The notes beneath the pieces are model-generated. The model saw nothing but the letters and a program-made list of their open reading frames with translations. It searched no databases and had not been told where the DNA came from. A stretch of 64,000 nt of DNA from Rhodovastum atsumiense (GTDB taxonomy: Bacteria > Pseudomonadota > Alphaproteobacteria > Acetobacterales > Acetobacteraceae). This document shows, piece by piece, positions 2-8,838 of the stretch (within the stretch, counting starts at the first letter, position 1; each line of letters begins with the position of its first letter). The position numbers and the translations under genes are program-made. The stretch covers positions 3,889,501-3,953,500 of the forward strand of contig NZ_OW485601.1 of assembly GCF_937425535.1 (NCBI RefSeq). Reading direction: 5' to 3'.

Positions 2-805
2 GACCCGGAGATGGAGCAGCGCCTGCAGTCGCGCCGCCGGCTGGAGACCGATCTGCGCCAGGCGGTCGAGACCGGCGCCTTCGAGATGCGCTACCAGCCG
101 GTGGTGGATGTCACCCGCAACCGCGTCACCGGCTTCGAGGCGCTGCTGCGCTGGCGCCATCCCGAGCGTGGGCTGCTGCCGCCATCGGAGTTCCTGCAGG
201 TCGCCGAGGAGATCGGCGCCATCGTGCCGATCGGGATGTGGGTGCTGCAGCACGCCTGCCACGACGCGGCGCTGTGGCCGGACGGGGTGAAGGTCGCCGT
301 GAACATCTCGCCCCGCCAGTTTCGCGGGCAGGATCTGCGGGAAGTGGTGGCCGGGGCGCTGTGGGCCGCCGGCCTGCCGCCGCAGCGGCTGGAGCTGGAG
401 ATCACCGAGACCGCGCTGCTCGCCGACAGTGACGCCACCTTCGACCTGCTGCACCGGCTGCGCGCCAGCGGCGTCGGCATCGCCATGGACGATTTCGGCA
501 CCGGCTATTCCAGCCTGAGTCATGTGCGCCGCTTTCCCTTCGACCGCATCAAGCTCGACCGTTCCTTCGTCGCCAGCATGGACAGCGATGCCGGCTCGCT
601 CGCGGTGATCCGCGCCGTCGCCGGGCTTGGCGCCAATCTCGGCATGGCCATCACGGCGGAGGGGGTGGAGACGGAAGGGCAGGTCGAGCGGCTGCGGGCC
701 GAGGGATATCACGAGCTGCAGGGCTATTATTTCGGGCGGCCATCCCCCGCCGAGGCGGTGCCCGGGATCATCCTCCGCCCCCAGGGGGCGCGGGCGGCGG
801 CCTGA
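2..805 (+). CDS. EAL-domain c-di-GMP phosphodiesterase, C-terminal part (5' end outside window)
   Basis: This is the C-terminal EAL domain of a larger protein. The reading frame is open to the window edge, and the first residues (DPEMEQRLQSRRRLETDL) match the GGDEF-EAL linker of the other proteins in this window, so a GGDEF domain probably lies upstream. The signature is FEALLRW near residue 45, followed by VNISPRQF, ELEITET, MDDFGTGYSSL, IKLDRSF and the TAEGVE loop, so the metal and c-di-GMP ligands look intact. EAL domains hydrolyse c-di-GMP to pGpG. It ends in a short Ala/Arg tail and is followed directly by a transposase remnant. Confidence 0.9.
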   Translation, partial: DPEMEQRLQSRRRLETDLRQAVETGAFEMRYQPVVDVTRNRVTGFEALLRWRHPERGLLPPSEFLQVAEEIGAIVPIGMWVLQHACHDAALWPDGVKVAVNISPRQFRGQDLREVVAGALWAAGLPPQRLELEITETALLADSDATFDLLHRLRASGVGIAMDDFGTGYSSLSHVRRFPFDRIKLDRSFVASMDSDAGSLAVIRAVAGLGANLGMAITAEGVETEGQVERLRAEGYHELQGYYFGRPSPAEAVPGIILRPQGARAAA

Positions 806-831
806 TGCCGCTCATAACTGCCTGCGGCGGC

Positions 832-950
832 AACAAGCGAACCGTCGACATCCACGCCGTGGTGAACGGGGTGATGTACGTGCTGAGCACCGGCTGCCAG
901 TGGGCGGTGCTGCCGAAGGACCTGCCACCGCGCAGCATGGCTGGTGGGAC
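832..950 (+). pseudogene. IS5-family transposase N-terminal remnant
   Basis: The translated stretch KRTVDIHAVVNGVMYVLSTG followed by CQWAVLPKDLPPRS is the characteristic N-terminal region of IS5-group (DUF4096-type) transposases. After about 40 residues the similarity stops and the frame runs into unrelated sequence. No DDE catalytic region and no terminal inverted repeats were seen. It is a dead fragment lying directly after the EAL gene, and it marks past insertion activity beside the fibre locus. The rest of 806-1081 holds nothing else recognisable. Confidence 0.75.
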
Positions 951-1081
951 ACCACCCCGGAACCCGACAAAAGCCGCCTTGTGGGCAGACCCGATGAAGC
1001 AGGAACCAGCCCGGCGAAACCTGGGAACCTCGGGGCTTCACCTCCGAGAGGATGTCAGGGTGCCGTGGCCGGCAGCCGCGC

Positions 1082-1528
1082 TCAGCGTGGCGCCGGTGGT
1101 TCCGCGCGCCTGGCGGTGGCGACGATCACCCGCAGCGTCGCGATCAGCAGCGTCGTGCCAAGGGATGCCGGGAAAATTCCCCGCAGGCCGCCTTGCAGGG
1201 TCTCCGAAATCGTCAACGCCTCGTTGCGTTCACAGATCATGAGAATGGGCCGCTTGGGGAAATGCGCGGCAACCCGTTGCAGATCCGCCTCCAGATCGAC
1301 CGTGGCGGCGCACCGGTGCATGGCATAGAAAAGGACGATATCGAGCGCCGCGCGCTCCTGTGCTGCTTCGCCGCAGTCCGCGACACTGTGGATTTCGAAG
1401 TCAGGCGCGCTGGACATCAGAAGCTGTGCGAGGCAATCACGCCTCAACCTGACCGGGTCGATCAGCAGCGCGCAGATTCGGCGGGACGGCCCTGCGTGGA
1501 AGAACGGCTGTCTGTCGCTGCCCTTCAT
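1082..1528 (-). CDS. stand-alone pseudo-receiver protein (no phospho-acceptor Asp, no HTH)
   Basis: The 148-residue product reads as a CheY-like fold: a first strand RICALLIDPVRLRRDCLAQL, a third strand DIVLFYAM, and PILMICE and GLRGIFPASL further on. At the place of the phospho-acceptor Asp (DIVLLD in NarL-type proteins) there is Tyr. The same Tyr occurs in the LuxR-type regulator at 6319-7095, and the two look like paralogues. This one stops just after the receiver and has no DNA-binding domain. It may act by binding a partner, but that is inference. The start is the ATG at 1528; longer in-frame starts exist upstream. It is the outermost gene of the fibre locus. Confidence 0.6.
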   Translation of the reverse strand: MKGSDRQPFFHAGPSRRICALLIDPVRLRRDCLAQLLMSSAPDFEIHSVADCGEAAQERAALDIVLFYAMHRCAATVDLEADLQRVAAHFPKRPILMICERNEALTISETLQGGLRGIFPASLGTTLLIATLRVIVATARRAEPPAPR

Positions 1529-1688
1529 CAGGGTACGCGGGGACTGTCCGCGCGGCGAAGCTGTCCCGCCGGAATCCGCGCGTGGCGCCGGTGCAGCCAC
1601 GCGCGGGCCGGATTGTGCCTCGTTCGCAAAGTCACCTTGTCCGGCGCGGCATGACGGAGCCGCCGGATCGTATGTGCGACGGCCGTCC

Positions 1689-2153
1689 TCATTTGATTGC
1701 AGATGGCAGGGTGGGGCCAAGCTGTAATCCGGACACGCCGGGTATTTCTAGGATGGGTGAGGGAACGACGCCCGGCAGGCCCAGGCCTCCGTCCGGCGCC
1801 GATAGCGACTGCGGGGCGATGGACAGGCCGTTCACTCCCCCACCGGCACCGTTGCCCCGGTTGCTGCCGATGCCGTTGTTGCCGTGATTGCTGCCTGAAT
1901 TGTAGTTCCCGTTGTTGTCTCCGTAATTGGCATTGCCGTTGCCGTCGCCACGGTTGCCGTTGCCGTTGCCATTGCCGACATTGCCGTTGCCGTTGCCGTT
2001 GCCGGCTCCGCCCTGGACCTGGCCAAGTTGTACGTCGCTCAGGCGCTGCGCCGCGTCCGCCATGGCGAGAGTGCTTGCGGACCACCCGAGAAGGGCGACA
2101 CCGCAAAGAAACGCCCTGTTCAAGCCTCGACCTCCTGCGCCGATGCCAGGCAT
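1689..2153 (-). CDS. secreted Gly-Asn repeat protein 1
   Basis: The product is about 154 residues. It has an N-terminal Sec-type signal (LNRAFLCGVALLGWSASTLA, then MADA), then a short motif RLSDVQLGQVQGG, then about 65 residues dominated by (GN)n units such as GNGNGNGNVGNGNGNGN. A repeat-free tail of about 50 residues rich in Gly, Leu and Pro follows. The motif L-x-D-x-x-L-x-Q-x-x-G-G before the repeats resembles a double-glycine leader and is shared with the next two repeat proteins. No enzyme domain is visible, so a structural, fibre-forming role is inferred. The start is uncertain: ATG 2153 is chosen, and ATG 2183 in the same frame is possible. It lies 67 bp downstream of repeat protein 2 on the same strand, probably co-transcribed. 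Confidence 0.75.
   Translation of the reverse strand: MPGIGAGGRGLNRAFLCGVALLGWSASTLAMADAAQRLSDVQLGQVQGGAGNGNGNGNVGNGNGNGNRGDGNGNANYGDNNGNYNSGSNHGNNGIGSNRGNGAGGGVNGLSIAPQSLSAPDGGLGLPGVVPSPILEIPGVSGLQLGPTLPSAIK
1941..2012. repeat. imperfect (GGCAAC)n hexanucleotide array in repeat protein 1
   Basis: On the + strand this is runs of ccgttg units broken by variant triplets; on the coding strand each 6-bp unit encodes Gly-Asn. Gain or loss of one unit keeps the frame, so slippage would change repeat length, not switch the gene off. Confidence 0.8.
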
Positions 2154-2220
2154 ACCGCCCTGCCAGGCCACAAGATGGGACATCCGCCGGCGGCGGCGGT
2201 TGAAGCGGCGTCAAAACGGA

Positions 2221-2727
<507 letters not shown>

Positions 2728-3041
2728 GCATCACCCCTTATCGGAGCCATCGGGTTTGGCCAGGTTCGGCACGGGTGCCGTGACCGCTCCCAATCGGGTC
2801 CAGAATACTATTGAATGTGCTTTGGTCCTGACCATTCGGCGAAAAGTGGTAGATGGTCCTGCGAACATCTCGGGCCCGGGAGTTCCCCTCACTGTCGTCC
2901 TTGTCAGGGGTCCACCGTGCCAGGGGCAATGGCCAACCGGACCAGCCAACAGGCTGCTGCGGCACGGGCAAGGCCGCCCCCGATCTGGTCGGAAAGCGGC
3001 TTTGCCGCGCCGTCGCCTATGCAGACATGCGCGTGCCTGCC
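2728..3041. other. intergenic region upstream of repeat protein 2
   Basis: No credible gene was seen in these 314 bp. It separates the 3' end of repeat protein 3 from the start of repeat protein 2 and should hold the promoter for the 2727-1689 pair on the minus strand. No clear -35/-10 pair could be picked. Confidence 0.5.
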
Positions 3042-3443
3042 TTATCGGTTGCCGTTGCCGTTGCCGTTGCCGCTGCCGGCGCCGATATTCCCGTTGCCGT
3101 TGCCGTTGCCGTTCAGCCCGCCCCAGTTGCCGTTGCCGTTGCCGTTGCCATTCAGCAGGCCCCAGTTGAGGTTGCCGTTGCCGTTGCCGTTGCCGTAGCC
3201 GATGTTGAAGTTGCCGTTGCCGTTGCCGTTGAGCGCGCCGCTGTTGCCGTTGCCGTTGCCGTTGCCATTGCCGACGCCGATATTGCCGTTGCCGTTGCCG
3301 TTGCCGCTGCCGATGGCGCCCGCAGTGGACTGATCAAGCTGGGTGTCGTTCAGCTTGAGCGGAGCTGCCGACGCGACAGTGGCGAAAGAGAAGAGTGCAG
3401 CGGCCGCGAACAGGGCCAGCTTGGTGAACGGAGCTTTCTTCAT
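3042..3443 (-). CDS. secreted Gly-Asn repeat protein 3
   Basis: A 133-residue protein starting at ATG 3443 (aggaac upstream). Signal peptide MKKAPFTKLALFAAAALFSF continues to ATVASA, followed by the leader-like motif LKLNDTQLDQSTAG and then seven (GN)3-4 blocks to the C-terminus. The blocks are joined by IGVG, SGAL, FNIGYG, LNWGLL and WGGL linkers, giving a period of about 13-15 residues. Aromatic residues occur only in the linkers. It is the most regular of the three repeat proteins and a plausible major subunit. It is transcribed divergently from the unknown protein at 3814 and the peptidase and barrel genes. Confidence 0.8.
   Translation of the reverse strand: MKKAPFTKLALFAAAALFSFATVASAAPLKLNDTQLDQSTAGAIGSGNGNGNGNIGVGNGNGNGNGNSGALNGNGNGNFNIGYGNGNGNGNLNWGLLNGNGNGNGNWGGLNGNGNGNGNIGAGSGNGNGNGNR
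3045..3316. repeat. imperfect (GGCAAC)n hexanucleotide array in repeat protein 3
   Basis: The longest array: ccgttg units in blocks of three to four over about 270 bp, interrupted by in-frame linkers. It covers nearly the whole mature protein. Confidence 0.85.
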
Positions 3444-3813
3444 TCCGGTATGTTCCTCATCCTGAATGCGGCGGCGACCCGTTATGCTGCCATTACGCCA
3501 ACTCAAGGCAGATTTCCGGCCGCGCTCCGCAGAATTGGCGTGATGATCGCAACCTTGGCGTAACGCCATGACTGTGTCAGCTGCGACGCGGCGTGGAAAT
3601 TCCACAATAGTCGTAAATAAAACTGGCAATGACCCCGCCGTCCCGGTCAGTGATTCCATCGTCCGGTGCGCGGCATGCTACCCACTCCTGCCAGGTGGCC
3701 TGACGTCCTCCGGCATGCCATCGTTTGCGGTTGAACGGCCGCTGCATTCATCGCACACCGCCACGGCGCTGCGCCCGGACGGCGGCACCGCCAGCGTGGC
3801 TGGGGGAGAGCCG
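3444..3813. promoter_or_regulatory. divergent intergenic region of the repeat-protein locus
   Basis: This 370-bp region lies between repeat protein 3 (minus) and the 3814 gene (plus), with no credible gene inside. Two direct TTGGCGT copies at 3535-3541 and 3555-3561 are spaced 20 bp start to start, about two helical turns. They could be binding sites for a regulator such as the LuxR-type protein at 6319. AT-rich sequence around 3600-3630 could hold a promoter. All regulatory roles are inference. Confidence 0.4.
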
Positions 3814-4131
3814 ATGACGCACACAGTCAAGATTGTGCTTTCACCGGAGGAGTGGAACGAGGCGGTCCGTGCGTCGGCGATCGCCATCGCGCCCTATTGC
3901 GACAAGGTCGAATCGCTTCCGTCCGAAACACTGGCCGAGTTGCTGCGCACCGTCATGATGACCGCCTTGTGGCGGCATCACGCCTGGCTCGCGGCACAGA
4001 TGATCGGCGCCGTGATTTCGGCCGAGGAGACGAGCGAGCGCAGCTACCTTTTTCGCTTCCAGTCGGAACAGGACGCACGCCGGTTCCAGGCGGCGTTCGG
4101 GGGCAACGTGGTGGCGACGCCCGTCCAGTGA
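3814..4131 (+). CDS. small protein of unknown function within the fibre locus
   Basis: A 105-residue soluble-looking protein starting at ATG 3814, with a purine-rich ggggagag upstream. I do not recognise the family. It has no signal peptide or membrane segment. It begins with a strand-like VKIVLSPEEW, has a helical middle (LAELLRTVMMTALWRHHAWL), and ends with FRFQSEQDARRFQAAFGG. It is the first gene of the plus-strand group that continues with the C39 peptidase (133 bp later) and the outer-membrane barrel. Its position suggests a cytoplasmic accessory or regulatory partner of the export system. A longer in-frame start at 3568 exists but gives compositionally odd N-terminal sequence. Confidence 0.55.
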   Translation: MTHTVKIVLSPEEWNEAVRASAIAIAPYCDKVESLPSETLAELLRTVMMTALWRHHAWLAAQMIGAVISAEETSERSYLFRFQSEQDARRFQAAFGGNVVATPVQ

Positions 4132-4264
4132 CGGGGCCGGCCGGCTGGTAGTACGCCTTTTTGGGAATGTGACGCTGCCCGTGCCGGCGGGGAAGATGCA
4201 CGGGCCATCGCCGTGCGGCCGCGCGATGGACGGAAACGTGTCCTGCCGCGGGTGTCCGATTGCC

Positions 4265-4984
4265 ATGACAATGCGACGCTGGATGATCCGTGCCCTTCCC
4301 CTCGCGCTGCTCGCGGGATGCCATGGCGGCGAGGCCGTGCCGCAGGCGAAGGCCGTGCGCAGCCTGCTTGAAGCGCGCCAGCAGAACGTGGTGATTCAGA
4401 AATACGACCTCAGCTGCGGCGCGGCAGCGCTCGCGACCCTGCTGAAATACGGCCATGGCGAAGATGTCACCGAGCACGATGCCGCCGCCGGCATGTTGCG
4501 GCGGACCAGCATCGCGCTGGTGCAGCAGCGTCTCGGCTTCTCGTTGCTGGACCTCAAGCGCTTCGCGCAGACGCGCGGGTTCGAGGCGGACGGCTACGCC
4601 GAACTCACCCTTTCGGATCTCATCGACTTCGGCGCCGCGATCGTGCCGGTGAAGCTGCGGGGGTTCAACCACTTCGTCGTGTTCCGCGGCGTGCAGGGAG
4701 ATCGGGTGCTGCTGGCCGACCCGGCCTTCGGCAACCGCACGATGCCGATCGCCAGGTTCGAGGATATCTGGCAGGGGAGGATCGGCTTTTTGCTGCGCCG
4801 CACCGACGGGCATCCTTCGCCGAACCTGCTGGCGGCCCGGCCTTCGGATTTCTGGGCCTCCAGCGGCCCGCTGCGGGTGGCATCGCCGAAGCCGGTGCAG
4901 ACGGCCCCCGCCGATGCTCTGGCCACCGCGGCGGGCGCCAGGGCAAGGCCGGATCATCCCACGCCGCAGGCCCCGGGGGGCTGA
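4265..4984 (+). CDS. lipoprotein C39-like (double-glycine) peptidase, FapD-like
   Basis: The 239-residue product is a C39 cysteine peptidase-fold protein. Starting at ATG 4265, MRRWMIRALPLALLAGC is a lipoprotein signal with the lipobox Cys at residue 19. The catalytic set is complete: oxyanion Gln45 six residues before Cys51 (QKYDLSCGAAAL), His136 (FNHFVVF) and Asp152 (LADPAFG). A Pro/Ala-rich C-terminal tail of about 60 residues follows. C39 enzymes cleave after double-glycine-type leaders, and a member (FapD) is a core part of the Pseudomonas Fap amyloid operon. The three Gly-Asn proteins upstream carry leader-like L-x-D-x-x-L-x-Q motifs ending in GG or AG, so they are the likely substrates; this pairing is inference. 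An upstream in-frame ATG at 4169 would bury the lipobox. Confidence 0.8.
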   Translation: MTMRRWMIRALPLALLAGCHGGEAVPQAKAVRSLLEARQQNVVIQKYDLSCGAAALATLLKYGHGEDVTEHDAAAGMLRRTSIALVQQRLGFSLLDLKRFAQTRGFEADGYAELTLSDLIDFGAAIVPVKLRGFNHFVVFRGVQGDRVLLADPAFGNRTMPIARFEDIWQGRIGFLLRRTDGHPSPNLLAARPSDFWASSGPLRVASPKPVQTAPADALATAAGARARPDHPTPQAPGG

Positions 4985-5112
4985 CCGGATCCGGCAGCGG
5001 GGCAGCCCATTCACGAAATTGTGCCGCCAATATAAGTTGGTGATTAATTACTGCCCGCTTATGGTTGGCAGGGCCGTAATAATACTTCGACCCGGGTGGA
5101 ATCACCAATTCT

Positions 5113-6303
5113 ATGGTCCGAAGATATACTGGTGGAATTGCCACTGCGTTACTGCTCTGGCCGGTTATGGCAGGCGCCCAATCGACACCAGAGCAATTGC
5201 TGCGTGAAATCCAGCGGCGTGACGCCCTCATCGAGCAGCTCACCCGTCGGGTCGAAGCACTCGAACGGGCGCGCCCGGCCACGGCCGCCGCGCCAACAGC
5301 CGCCGCGCCCGCCCGCCCCCCGCCGAACGGAGGAAAGCCGCGCACCGCCACGGCGCCCCCCGCGCCCCCACCCGCCCCGCCAGCCGCGGAACCGGCAGCG
5401 GCGCAGGATCGCGCGAAGCCGGACGACACCCAGGAAGAGATGATCGCCCGTGCCCTGGAAAATACCCTGGTCGATCAGGGCGGCCAGCTTCTGCCGGCAG
5501 GAACGATGCAGATCGTCCCGGACCTACGCTATTCGTACCATAGCCTGACCCAACTCAGCTACGTCAACCTGGGAACCGGCATTCTGCCGGCGCCGGTGAC
5601 GCAGCGGGTACGGCAGGACATGTTGCAGGCCGGCCTCGGTCTGCGCATCGGGCTGCCCTGGGAATCGCAGTTCGAAATTCGCGTTCCGTACGGCTGGAAC
5701 AGCGGCCAGGCGACGTTCGGGGGCAGCATCACGCGGCACAGCACCCACACCGGGATCGGCGACGTCTCCATCGGTCTTTCCAAGCAGGTGCTGCACGAAC
5801 ACGGCCTGCTGCCGGATGTGCTGCTGAACCTGTTTTATTATGCCGGCACCGGAAGCTCGTCCTATTCGCAGAACCAGATCGCGACTTTTCCCTTCGCGGT
5901 GGGAACGGGCACCGGCTTTGACAGCCTGCAGGGAAGCATGACCCTGCTGAAGCGCCAGGACCCCCTGGTGTTTCTCGGCCAGATTTTCTACACGCACAAC
6001 TTTCCGGGCAAGTTCAACGGTATCAGCACCTCGCTCGGTGATTCGGTGGGCGCGCGGGTCTCGACGCTTTTGGCGGCGAGCCCCGAAACGTCGCTGCGGC
6101 TTGCCTTCGATACGGTCTTCCAGTCGAAAGGCGAGTCGGCCGGACGGCCGATTCCCGGGTCCGATCAGGTGTTCTCGTGGCTGGAGATCGGGGCGGGCGT
6201 GGTGCTGAGCCCAAGGGTCTTCCTTGACGCGTCGGTGGGGATCGGATTGACGCAGGACACGCCCGATTTCAGGGTGATGCTCTCCATGCCAATCCGATTC
6301 TGA
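5113..6303 (+). CDS. FapF-like outer-membrane beta-barrel exporter with N-terminal coiled coil
   Basis: A 396-residue protein with signal peptide MVRRYTGGIATALLLWPVMA ending in GA-Q. A heptad-rich helix follows at about 24-52 (LLREIQRRDALIEQLTRRVE), then a Pro/Ala linker to about residue 100. From RALENTLVDQGGQLLPAGTM onward there is an amphipathic beta-strand region to the terminal Phe (MPIRF), typical of an outer-membrane barrel. The order signal, coiled coil, linker, barrel is that of FapF, the trimeric pore that exports the Pseudomonas amyloid subunits FapB and FapC. The barrel also resembles the wider phenol-degradation 'meta-pathway' family, so FapF homology is a structural inference. 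It is 128 bp after the C39 gene on the same strand. Confidence 0.75.
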   Translation: MVRRYTGGIATALLLWPVMAGAQSTPEQLLREIQRRDALIEQLTRRVEALERARPATAAAPTAAAPARPPPNGGKPRTATAPPAPPPAPPAAEPAAAQDRAKPDDTQEEMIARALENTLVDQGGQLLPAGTMQIVPDLRYSYHSLTQLSYVNLGTGILPAPVTQRVRQDMLQAGLGLRIGLPWESQFEIRVPYGWNSGQATFGGSITRHSTHTGIGDVSIGLSKQVLHEHGLLPDVLLNLFYYAGTGSSSYSQNQIATFPFAVGTGTGFDSLQGSMTLLKRQDPLVFLGQIFYTHNFPGKFNGISTSLGDSVGARVSTLLAASPETSLRLAFDTVFQSKGESAGRPIPGSDQVFSWLEIGAGVVLSPRVFLDASVGIGLTQDTPDFRVMLSMPIRF

Positions 6304-6318
6304 GGCAACGCCGTGGGA

Positions 6319-7095
6319 TCAGGTTCCGACCGCGGTAACCGCGGCGGACCCCGCGCAGCTCACGTGCGTGAACAGGGCCACCTGGGTGCGGTTGGTGGCA
6401 CGCAGCTTCTTCATAATGTTGCGGACGTGGACCTTGACCGTGCTCTCCGAAATCTGCAGCGCGTAGGCGATGACCTTGTTCGGCTTGCCTTCGCGCAGGA
6501 GCTGAAGGACATCCGTCTCGCGGGTGGTGAGAAGCATGTCGGGGCCGGTGGCCGGGCTGGCCGGTTCCGAGGGAGGCGGATCGACCGGCACGACGGATGG
6601 AACAAGGTGGCGGCTGATGATCTGTTCCGGCACGAAGGTGCCGCCGGCCAGCACGAGTTCGATCGCCGCCACCACGACCAGACGAGGCAGCGTCGTGGGC
6701 ACGTAGCCTCGCGCCGCATGCCGGAACGCCGCCAGCATGCATTCGTGATCGTCGAGATCGGCAATCACGACGATCGGCGCAGGTCCGTATCGGGAACGAA
6801 TGAGGTCGAACTGGCGTATCACCGGCTCCTTATCGACCGGCGTGGCCCTGGCATAGACCAGCACGAGGTCGGGCTGCTCCATCACGGCGATACTCGCATC
6901 CGGCACGCCTTCCACTCTGGCGCCGCCTGGGCGGCTGGCGACCATGTGAAGCAGACATTCGCGGGTGATGGCGATGGAGTCCACGACAAGAATTGTAGGA
7001 CACTCCGTCTCGCATGAGCCTCTGTTTGGTTGCTGCGCTGAAATAGAAATCGCTCGTGGCCAAGATTGAAGCTGGGTCATATCGAACATATTCAC
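6319..7095 (-). CDS. LuxR/NarL-type regulator with pseudo-receiver domain
   Basis: A 258-residue protein: receiver-like domain at about 33-155 (ILVVDSIAITRECL, DLVLVYARATP, PIVVIADLDD, GYVPTTLP) and a LuxR HTH at about 188-245 (LTTRETDVLQLLREGKPNKV, then SESTVKVHVRNIMKKL). The residue that should be the phospho-acceptor Asp is Tyr in DLVLVYA, so conventional phosphorelay control is unlikely. The receiver is paralogous to the 1082-1528 protein, which lacks an HTH. The gene converges with the barrel gene, 15 bp apart. It is the obvious candidate regulator of the repeat-protein locus. Confidence 0.8.
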   Translation of the reverse strand: MNMFDMTQLQSWPRAISISAQQPNRGSCETECPTILVVDSIAITRECLLHMVASRPGGARVEGVPDASIAVMEQPDLVLVYARATPVDKEPVIRQFDLIRSRYGPAPIVVIADLDDHECMLAAFRHAARGYVPTTLPRLVVVAAIELVLAGGTFVPEQIISRHLVPSVVPVDPPPSEPASPATGPDMLLTTRETDVLQLLREGKPNKVIAYALQISESTVKVHVRNIMKKLRATNRTQVALFTHVSCAGSAAVTAVGT

Positions 7096-7524: not shown

Positions 7525-8838
7525 TCAGGCGGGCGGGGCGGCCGCGTCCCCGGCCGGGCGGGCCAGCAGGGCGGGGATCTCCCCGGCCGGGCGCGGCCGG
7601 CTGAACAGGTAGCCCTGCGCCTCGGCGCAGCCTTCCCGCGACAGGACGGCGAACTGCGTCTCCGTCTCCACCCCCTCGGCGGTGGTGGTCATGCCGAGGT
7701 CGGTGCACAGGGCGATCACCGCCAGCACGATGGCGATGCTGCGCGGCGAGGTCTCCAGTTCGCGGGTGAAGCCCCGGTCGATCTTGACCTTGTCGAAGGG
7801 AAAGCGCTGCAGATAGCTCAGGCTGGAATAGCCGGTGCCGAAATCGTCCATGGCGATGCGCACGCCAAGCCCCTTCAGCCGCCGCAGCGTGGCCAGGGTC
7901 GCCTCGGTTTCCTGCAGCATCACCGTCTCGGTGATTTCCAGCTCCAGCCGCGCCGGATCGAGGCCCGAGCGTTCCAGCGCGGCGGCGACGGCATCGACCA
8001 GCCCGCGATGGGTGAACTGCACGGAAGAGAGGTTCACCACGACCTTCGGGGCGCCCGGCCAGGTGGCGGCCTCGGCGCAGGCGCGCATCAGTACCCAGTC
8101 CCCGATCGGGACGATCAGGCCGGTTTCCTCGGCCAGCGGGATGAAGGCATCGGGTGGCACCAGGCCGCGTCCGGTGTGGCGCCAGCCCAGCAGCGCTTCC
8201 AGTCCGCCGGTACGGCGCGTGCGGATGTCGACGATCGGCTGGTAGAACAGCTCGAACTCGCCGGCGGCGACGGCATGGCGCAGGTCCGTCTCCAGGGCGC
8301 GGCGGGCCTGCATGCGCGCATCCATCTCCGGCTCGAAGAAGCGCCAGCAGCCCCGCCCGTCCGCCTTGGCACGAGAGAGCGCGATGTCGGCGCCGCGCAC
8401 CAACTCGTCGGCGTCGCGCCCGTCGCCCGTCGCCGGGCGCCATGGCAATGCCGATACTGCCGCCGATGACGAGAGAGTGGCCCTGCAGGTCGAAGGGGCT
8501 GGCGAGGGCGGCGATCAGGCGGTCGGCGACGCCGGTTGCTTCCTGCGGCTGCTGCACCTTGCCCTTGATCACGGCGAACTCGTCGCTGCCGAGCCGGGCG
8601 AGGGTGTCGGTCTGGCACAATTCCGCCTGCAGCCGGGCGGTGACGGCGCGGAGCAGCGCATCGCCGGCCGGGTGGCCGAGCGTGTCGTTGACTTCCTTGA
8701 AACGATCGAGGTCGATCAGCAGCACGGCGAAGCCCTCGCCGCGCGGCACCCGCGCCAGCGCCGCCTGCAGCCTGTCGCGGAATAATGTCCGGTTGGGGGC
8801 AGGCCGGTCAGCGCGTCATGGTGCGCCATGTGGCGGAT
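7525..8838 (-). pseudogene. GGDEF-EAL gene broken by two frameshifts and 5' truncated
   Basis: Reading on the minus strand from about 8838, homology to the intact paralogues starts at the HMAHHDALTG segment with no PAS region before it. A run of five G at about 8795-8799 (three in the intact copies, as at 54367) shifts the frame inside the first GGDEF block. A 7-bp tandem duplication of gcccgtc at 8418-8431 shifts it again between GGDEF and EAL. The GGDEF motif is altered to LGSDEF. The EAL part (GLEALLGW, VNLSSVQF, MDDFGTGYSSL, TAEGVE) is otherwise complete and open for about 300 codons. Confidence 0.85.

Follow-up and report, generated by a model that had tools for sequence, protein, structure and literature searches.

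A Fap-related secretion locus in Rhodovastum atsumiense with Gly-Asn repeat proteins as its probable cargo

A cluster of genes at positions 1082 to 7095 of a 64,000-nucleotide stretch of Rhodovastum atsumiense DNA (contig NZ_OW485601.1, positions 3,889,501 to 3,953,500 of the forward strand; hereafter the window) encodes a lipoprotein peptidase of the C39 family, an outer-membrane barrel resembling FapF and three secreted proteins rich in Gly-Asn dipeptides (GN1, GN2, and GN3). The locus is probably a Fap-type secretion unit that has the three GN-repeat proteins as its cargo. The homologies of the barrel and the peptidase, a double-glycine-type leader, the enrichment of this leader at the locus, and its co-occurrence with the same type of C39 peptidase in other genomes form the basis of this reading. 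The leader, present behind the Sec signal in all three GN proteins, was missed in an earlier note on this DNA. As all three bear a leader of the kind that C39 enzymes cut, the GN proteins can be tied to the peptidase.

The double-glycine-type leader

When named genomes were scanned for the C39 family, 79 loci were obtained, the majority in alpha-, beta-, and gammaproteobacteria. The barrel and motif counts exclude seven loci with weak matches (L113-L119), and the motif statistics exclude L111-L112 as well. In the related loci, small secreted proteins carry the sequence E-P-x-x-L-[TS]-x-x-[QE]-[ML]-D-x-V-[TS]-A-G right after the signal peptide. The leader was found in 170 of 674 signal-like open reading frames (ORFs) of 70 related loci, where shuffling expects 1.95; the 674 ORFs were taken from six frames and include spurious ones. 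At least one leader ORF was present in 59 of the 70 loci, and a looser pattern applied to L041-L112 gave 59 of 72. Among the 12 signal-like ORFs in the first 8000 positions of the window, the leader occurs in exactly the three GN proteins, while it is absent from the 41 such ORFs at positions 8001 to 64000 and likewise from all 299 found in control DNA of the same genome (400 kb from 20 places).

The leaders of GN1 (LNDTQLDQSTAG, 3318..3353, with the predicted cut at its end), GN2 (LPDGALDQIAAG, 2623..2658), and GN3 (LSDVQLGQVQGG, 2007..2042, ending in GG) are all encoded on the minus strand. The motif (Leu at -12, Leu or Met at -7, a hydrophobic residue at -4, and Gly or Ala at both -2 and -1) is complete in GN2 and GN3; GN1 has an unusual Ser at -4. 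An Asp at -6, conserved in 99 % of the leaders though it lies outside the search pattern, is present in two of the three GN proteins, GN3 having Gly. The same register (L-12, L-7, V-4, G/A-2, G-1), in the window and its relatives usually with the ending A-G, is seen in the leaders handled by double-glycine bacteriocin exporters, i.e., peptidase-containing ATP-binding cassette (ABC) transporters and type I secretion systems, which also use the C39 family. Unlike in those transporters, the peptidase of the window is a stand-alone exported lipoprotein without an ABC transporter part, and here a Sec signal precedes the leader. A leader placed after the export signal suggests how the protease would choose its cargo.

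A leader model of 44 positions was made from 38 leaders, none of which came from the window's genome (G000) or from G091, a genome of the same family that is the nearest relative with the window's type of C39. When 150 genomes of the family were searched at E ≤ 2e-4, only G091 (five places, four of these on the C39 contig) and G000 (GN1, E 5.7e-8) were matched; these are the two among the 150 with a C39 match above 150 bits. In G091, one match away from the C39 contig (C677, 7119-7208, E 1.2e-7) is perhaps an unlinked cargo gene. Of 385 genomes of the class, eight were matched at E ≤ 1e-4, and these are the eight best-scoring of the 23 that have a C39 match. The hypergeometric probability of this outcome relative to all 23 (4e-11) is not corrected for shared ancestry and overstates the independence of the genomes, since genes belonging to one locus are passed on jointly. 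In seven of the eight genomes at least one leader lies within about 1.5 kb of the C39 gene on the same contig; in G219, a fragmented assembly, it is on another contig.

The Gly-Asn proteins

GN1 (3042..3443, minus strand) most plausibly starts at 3443, where the signal peptide begins, rather than at 3659. Behind the Sec signal and the leader follows a mature chain of 91 residues (41 % Gly, 36 % Asn) that comprises some seven units, each about 13 residues long, with bulky residues at that same spacing. The mature part of GN2 (2221..2727, minus strand) is 133 residues long and is likewise rich in Gly and Asn. GN3 (1689..2183, minus strand; start at 2183, 2153, or 2123) has a mature chain of 105 residues with a short GN tract; the last two fifths of the chain form a Pro/hydrophobic C-terminal tail. 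The mature parts contain 28, 30, and 13 GN dipeptides, respectively, as compared to 13.4, 14.5, and 6.0 expected from their composition. In the whole genome (7.42 Mb, 9 contigs) a 24-base pattern for (GN)4 has 14 matches, all 14 of which are within the three GN genes. Thus, the three secreted GN-repeat proteins of the earlier note were confirmed by their frames, their signal-peptide-like N termini, the dipeptide excess, and the (GN)4 search. No family above cut-off was obtained for them in Pfam and NCBIfam scans, nor for the other cargo proteins that were scanned. The same note had proposed that these proteins form fibres and have a solenoid-like fold, for which support is absent: an AlphaFold2 model of GN1 alone gave no fold (predicted local distance difference test score, pLDDT, 48; predicted template modelling score 0.23), which leaves the solenoid unsupported.

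GN proteins next to a C39-barrel pair, a co-occurrence that the earlier note had proposed to search for, were not encountered in any of the relatives viewed. The (GN)4 pattern is present in 25 of 385 genomes of the class and 19 of 397 of the family, the window's genome being counted in both. A total of 46 loci in the other 41 genomes with the pattern were viewed, at one or two places per genome and with a few frames running off the contig; none had a GN tract behind a double-glycine-type leader, as judged by eye or by pattern. None of the 170 leader proteins of the related C39 loci is GN-rich, the highest GN density being 0.033. As far as sampled, the GN cargo would therefore appear to be new.

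The GN tracts might be hexanucleotide repeat expansions in ordinary leader-bearing cargo, which would be exported with repeats that have no structural role. This is unlikely, even if GGC and AAC are the dominant codons of the tracts, (GN)4 also occurs in other genes elsewhere, and the relatives viewed show no GN cargo. All 14 matches in the genome fall, in frame, in three neighbouring genes. Moreover, as AAC and AAT are mixed among the Asn codons (29/4 in GN1, 28/15 in GN2, and 15/6 in GN3), the tracts do not consist of a single, pure array of hexanucleotides, and the regular spacing of the bulky residues in GN1 also argues against mere expansion.

The C39 peptidase

The gene at 4265..4984 (plus strand) specifies a C39 peptidase with a lipobox, similar to FapD and FilB. 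Its match to Pfam Peptidase_C39 (PF03412; E 6.5e-17) scores 62 bits against a gathering score of 22. The lipobox (LLAGC) and the residues Gln45, Cys51, His136, and Asp152 could be read in the sequence, these four being invariant in six aligned sequences, in agreement with the C39-fold lipoprotein with a full catalytic set described before. In the PDB, LahT150, a double-glycine protease, matches best (6mpz, E 3e-7). In its own genome the protein is unique, its sole match at E ≤ 0.001 being to itself. Of the NCBIfam models, FilB (7e-36) and FapD (5e-30) both match below their curated cut-offs; for the FapD equivalog NF058616 the score is 104 bits as against a cut-off of 330.

It has been proposed as one possibility for FapD that the peptidase acts on the barrel, FapF being discussed as a possible target in the accessible text of that paper (PMC5557850). 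By analogy, the C39 protein of the window could spare the GN leaders and serve as a chaperone or cut the barrel. The variant leaders of GN1 and GN3 would suit such a role, which is nonetheless improbable given the complete catalytic set and the co-occurrence of leader and C39 type across genomes.

The nap island of Neisseria (NapABC, NapP, NapF) resembles the window locus in that its cargo has a GG motif and that it encodes a C39 peptidase as well as a FapF homologue; a putative regulator is also present (PMC11798529, main text). In the model proposed there, NapP cuts the peptides in the periplasm and NapF exports them, which provides a precedent for the route proposed below; the words "Sec" and "SignalP" do not occur in the main text (PMC11798529). 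The shared logic could mean that the window locus, too, exports bacteriocin-like or autolysis peptides. This is quite improbable, as Nap cargo is short and linked to autolysis, with mature peptides of 36, 16, and 31 residues that are predicted to be cationic, whereas the GN chains (91, 133, and 105 residues) are longer, repetitive, and nearly uncharged.

FapE and the Fap subunits

The earlier note had recognised no gene like fapA, fapB, fapC, or fapE. For FapB and FapE this now holds for the whole genome, in which their models have no match at E ≤ 1; for FapA and FapC, it holds for the window proteins, the part of the genome searched with these models. Elsewhere the FapB model does match weakly, at E 1e-4 in G143 and at E 0.034 in G127, without reaching its cut-off. 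An ordinary fap operon with diverged FapB and FapC would explain the similarities to FapF and FapD, but is very improbable because FapB and FapE are missing genome-wide (FapC having been sought in the window), the FapB model does produce weak matches in G143 and G127, and no family was matched by the GN proteins.

FapE is the only Fap protein for which mass spectrometry showed complete processing at the N-terminus, and FapD was proposed to cut it, according to the text available (PMC5557850). Which protein FapD acts on was left open in the accessible parts of two studies (PMC5557850; PMC6173800). A locus of Shewanella (L111) has matches to FapB, FapC, FapD, FapE, and FapF, all below cut-off. 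Its FapE (L111:6615-7343) carries LSDIELGQQRG-R-Y after the signal peptide, the residue at -4 being Gln. When the FapE model was applied to 17 genomes, eight had a match at E ≤ 1 and in five of these eight the match adjoins a C39 gene (L252, L253, L260, L255, and L256; E 2e-22 to 0.012). This count omits matches in G229, G331, and G480 and further ones in G271 (C4, C9) and G293 (1424349), which are weak or away from C39. All five adjoining proteins contain [L/V/I][S/A][D/N]xxLxx[I/L/M][R/H]G[G/K/R][F/Y]. As the leader patterns do not catch L111, the motif is to be taken as a degenerate leader seen by eye. Its presence at six C39 loci makes it likely that FapE is the substrate of FapD, and it would give the proposal that FapD cuts FapE, made in the text cited above (PMC5557850), a candidate site.

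The FapF-like barrel and its neighbourhood

The product of 5113..6303 (plus strand) matches the NCBIfam model of FapF (3.8e-20) below cut-off, with 72 bits as against 700 for the equivalog, and also that of FilC, again below the curated cut-off. Since the FapF, FapD, FilB, and FilC models all stay below these cut-offs, the locus is a relative and not an equivalog. An AlphaFold2 model of the monomer (46 sequences, pLDDT 83) comprises an N-terminal helix (residues 26-53), a low-confidence linker, a plug-like helix (105-121), and a β-barrel. In a Foldseek search with this model 18 FapF chains came first (best 5o65, E 3.2e-17; template modelling scores 0.67-0.78 by target), followed by COG4313 at ranks 19-20 (4rl8, E 1.7e-8). 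A profile of the barrel family matched FapF at 9e-48, the next match being at E 0.0064, and has one clear match in the genome (1.1e-115; next 0.008). The signal/coiled-coil/linker/barrel architecture reported earlier is thus that of a FapF-like protein, and it is scarcely credible that the barrel is an uptake porin of the COG4313 or phenol type among unrelated neighbours: Pfam Phenol_MetA_deg (E 1.8e-6) and 4rl8 do match, but FapF ranks ahead in the Foldseek and the family-profile searches and the C39 partner is kept in relatives. A search for the barrel in viral contigs gave three stretches that fit a pattern, none of them a relative.

A search iterated from the window's own barrel placed a barrel beside the C39 gene in 68 of the loci L041-L112 (72 in all). 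The barrel is lacking in L042 (a piece of 3.7 kb), L073 (4.4 kb), L087 (6.6 kb), and L109 (12.5 kb). The neighbourhood is therefore conserved, and the Fap-related machinery suggested by the earlier note stands on the profile and fold of FapF, the C39 protein, and the adjoining pair, with GN proteins that match no family. Two of the three outcomes that the earlier note had named as refuting, a barrel that aligns with porins only and a neighbourhood not kept elsewhere, did not come up; on the third, which concerns an extracellular repeat protein, the signal peptides bear.

Other genomes within the family contain a second type of C39 locus (L033-L040). It has in common with the window locus the C39 protein (8/8), a FapF-like barrel (6/8 by tblastn), and secreted proteins with a GG leader (a plain GG or AG leader in 7/8), and it differs in having Fap-like repeat proteins and, in most loci, a sigma-54-type activator (by eye). 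A FapB model match in L038 (E 3.3e-9) is below cut-off. The seven GG proteins of these loci are not claimed to be FapE: a profile comparison with Shewanella FapE aligned the leader region only and was not significant (E 0.12), and the five of them that were tested had no match to a FapE model.

In four loci of Oxalobacteraceae type (L043, L047, L060, and L076) the cargo has a repeat-like tail, roughly INxSPVTxxQ...NxAxxxSGNxSxIxQ by eye; that of L043 has a very weak match to Curlin_rpt (E 0.24). In G314 the C39 match (C3:335912-336451) contains one in-frame TGA, and this genome still has leader proteins.

The proposed route of secretion

The signal peptides suggest that Sec would take each GN protein into the periplasm. 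There, the C39 lipoprotein, which its lipobox should anchor to a membrane, may bind the short leader helix via Leu-12, Leu/Met-7, and the residue at -4 and cut after [A/G]-G, setting free the mature GN chain. Going by the homology to FapF, the unfolded chain would then leave through the barrel. The last step is the least certain, a guess from composition: the chains might associate outside the cell into a surface fibre or matrix; GN1 and GN2 could be its chief subunits, and GN3, which ends in a hydrophobic tail, could serve as a cap or anchor.

Several observations weigh against this route. The GN genes point away from the C39 gene, whereas the cargo genes of relatives lie mostly upstream on the same strand (by eye). 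The leader pattern was composed after examples had been seen; the leaders of GN1 and GN3 have deviating residues, a Ser at -4 in the former and a Gly at -6 in the latter, and 11 of the 70 C39 loci, some on short contigs, have no leader ORF. In the leader-model search GN2 is at E 0.016, amid a background of other genomes that starts at about 0.003, and GN3 is absent among the matches listed, down to E of about 0.19. G410, the ninth in C39 score (171.8 bits, nearly that of the window), has no match to the leader model. Finally, the model of GN1 shows no fold, and the role of the GN proteins as cargo is without comparative support, since none was found in any relative viewed.

Neighbouring genes

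Of the two flanking regulators of the earlier note, the one at 6319..7095 (minus strand) was corroborated as a LuxR/NarL-type protein (GerE, E 2e-21 in the Pfam scan). The product of 1082..1720 (minus strand) has receiver-like similarity only: it is 23 % identical over 120 amino acids (E 7e-7) to the receiver-like part of the former, Pfam gives nothing above cut-off for it and NCBIfam no match, and no DNA-binding domain was detected in it. Both are tied to the locus by position only. The ORF list has a small ORF between GN1 and the C39 gene (3814..4131, plus strand); the longer frame that contains it (3568-4131) gave no family above cut-off in the Pfam and NCBIfam scans.

Genes related to cyclic di-GMP flank the cluster. 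Two GGDEF/EAL-type genes each appear, by eye, to be split over two overlapping frames (7373-8749/7525-8448, minus strand, and 8975-10249/9360-10229, plus strand), and a further EAL protein is encoded at 11-805 (Pfam EAL, 6.8e-72). A short frame beside the cluster (805-1240, plus strand) is possibly the remnant of a mobile element; by eye, its product looks like the N-terminal portion of an IS5-type transposase.

Relation to known systems and significance

The Fil locus (FilB, FilC) is presumably a system of Acinetobacter. The C39 protein of the window fits FilB better than FapD, and the barrel matches FilC; on the other hand, all scores are far below the curated cut-offs and the barrel fits FapF better than FilC. 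With Fap of Pseudomonas (fapABCDEF) the window shares a FapF-type barrel with N-terminal and plug-like helices, a periplasmic C39 peptidase, and Sec-exported repeat cargo. It differs in that GN repeats replace the Fap repeats, no FapB or FapE match exists in the genome, and all three cargo proteins have a double-glycine-type leader, whereas Fap proteins are stated, in the text available, to be without canonical C39 sequences (PMC5557850).

To call the system undescribed, as had been done, is too strong. The nap island (PMC11798529) and co-located homologues of fapD and fapF, reported in five additional phyla (PMC6173800), precede it, as far as the accessible texts go. For cargo with a Sec signal followed by a double-glycine leader as a class, no description was found in the literature searched, which included few subscription papers and no preprints; the nearest is nap. 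What would be new here is Fap/nap-like machinery with unrelated cargo, together with a proteobacteria-wide class of leaders not found described.

The chances are about even that these loci represent a wide proteobacterial class of secretion, in which a Sec signal is followed by a double-glycine leader that is cut by a periplasmic C39 peptidase, with exit through a FapF-type barrel. Fap would be a branch of this class, with FapE keeping a degenerate leader as the substrate of FapD, and the mature part would be free to change between lineages, here into a new Gly-Asn fibre material. The leader provides a sequence tag with which secreted cargo beside C39/FapF pairs may be found in other genomes, and it predicts where each of the GN proteins, and FapE, would be cut. 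The findings suggest that one export route apparently serves very different materials, in this organism a chain made mostly of Gly and Asn.

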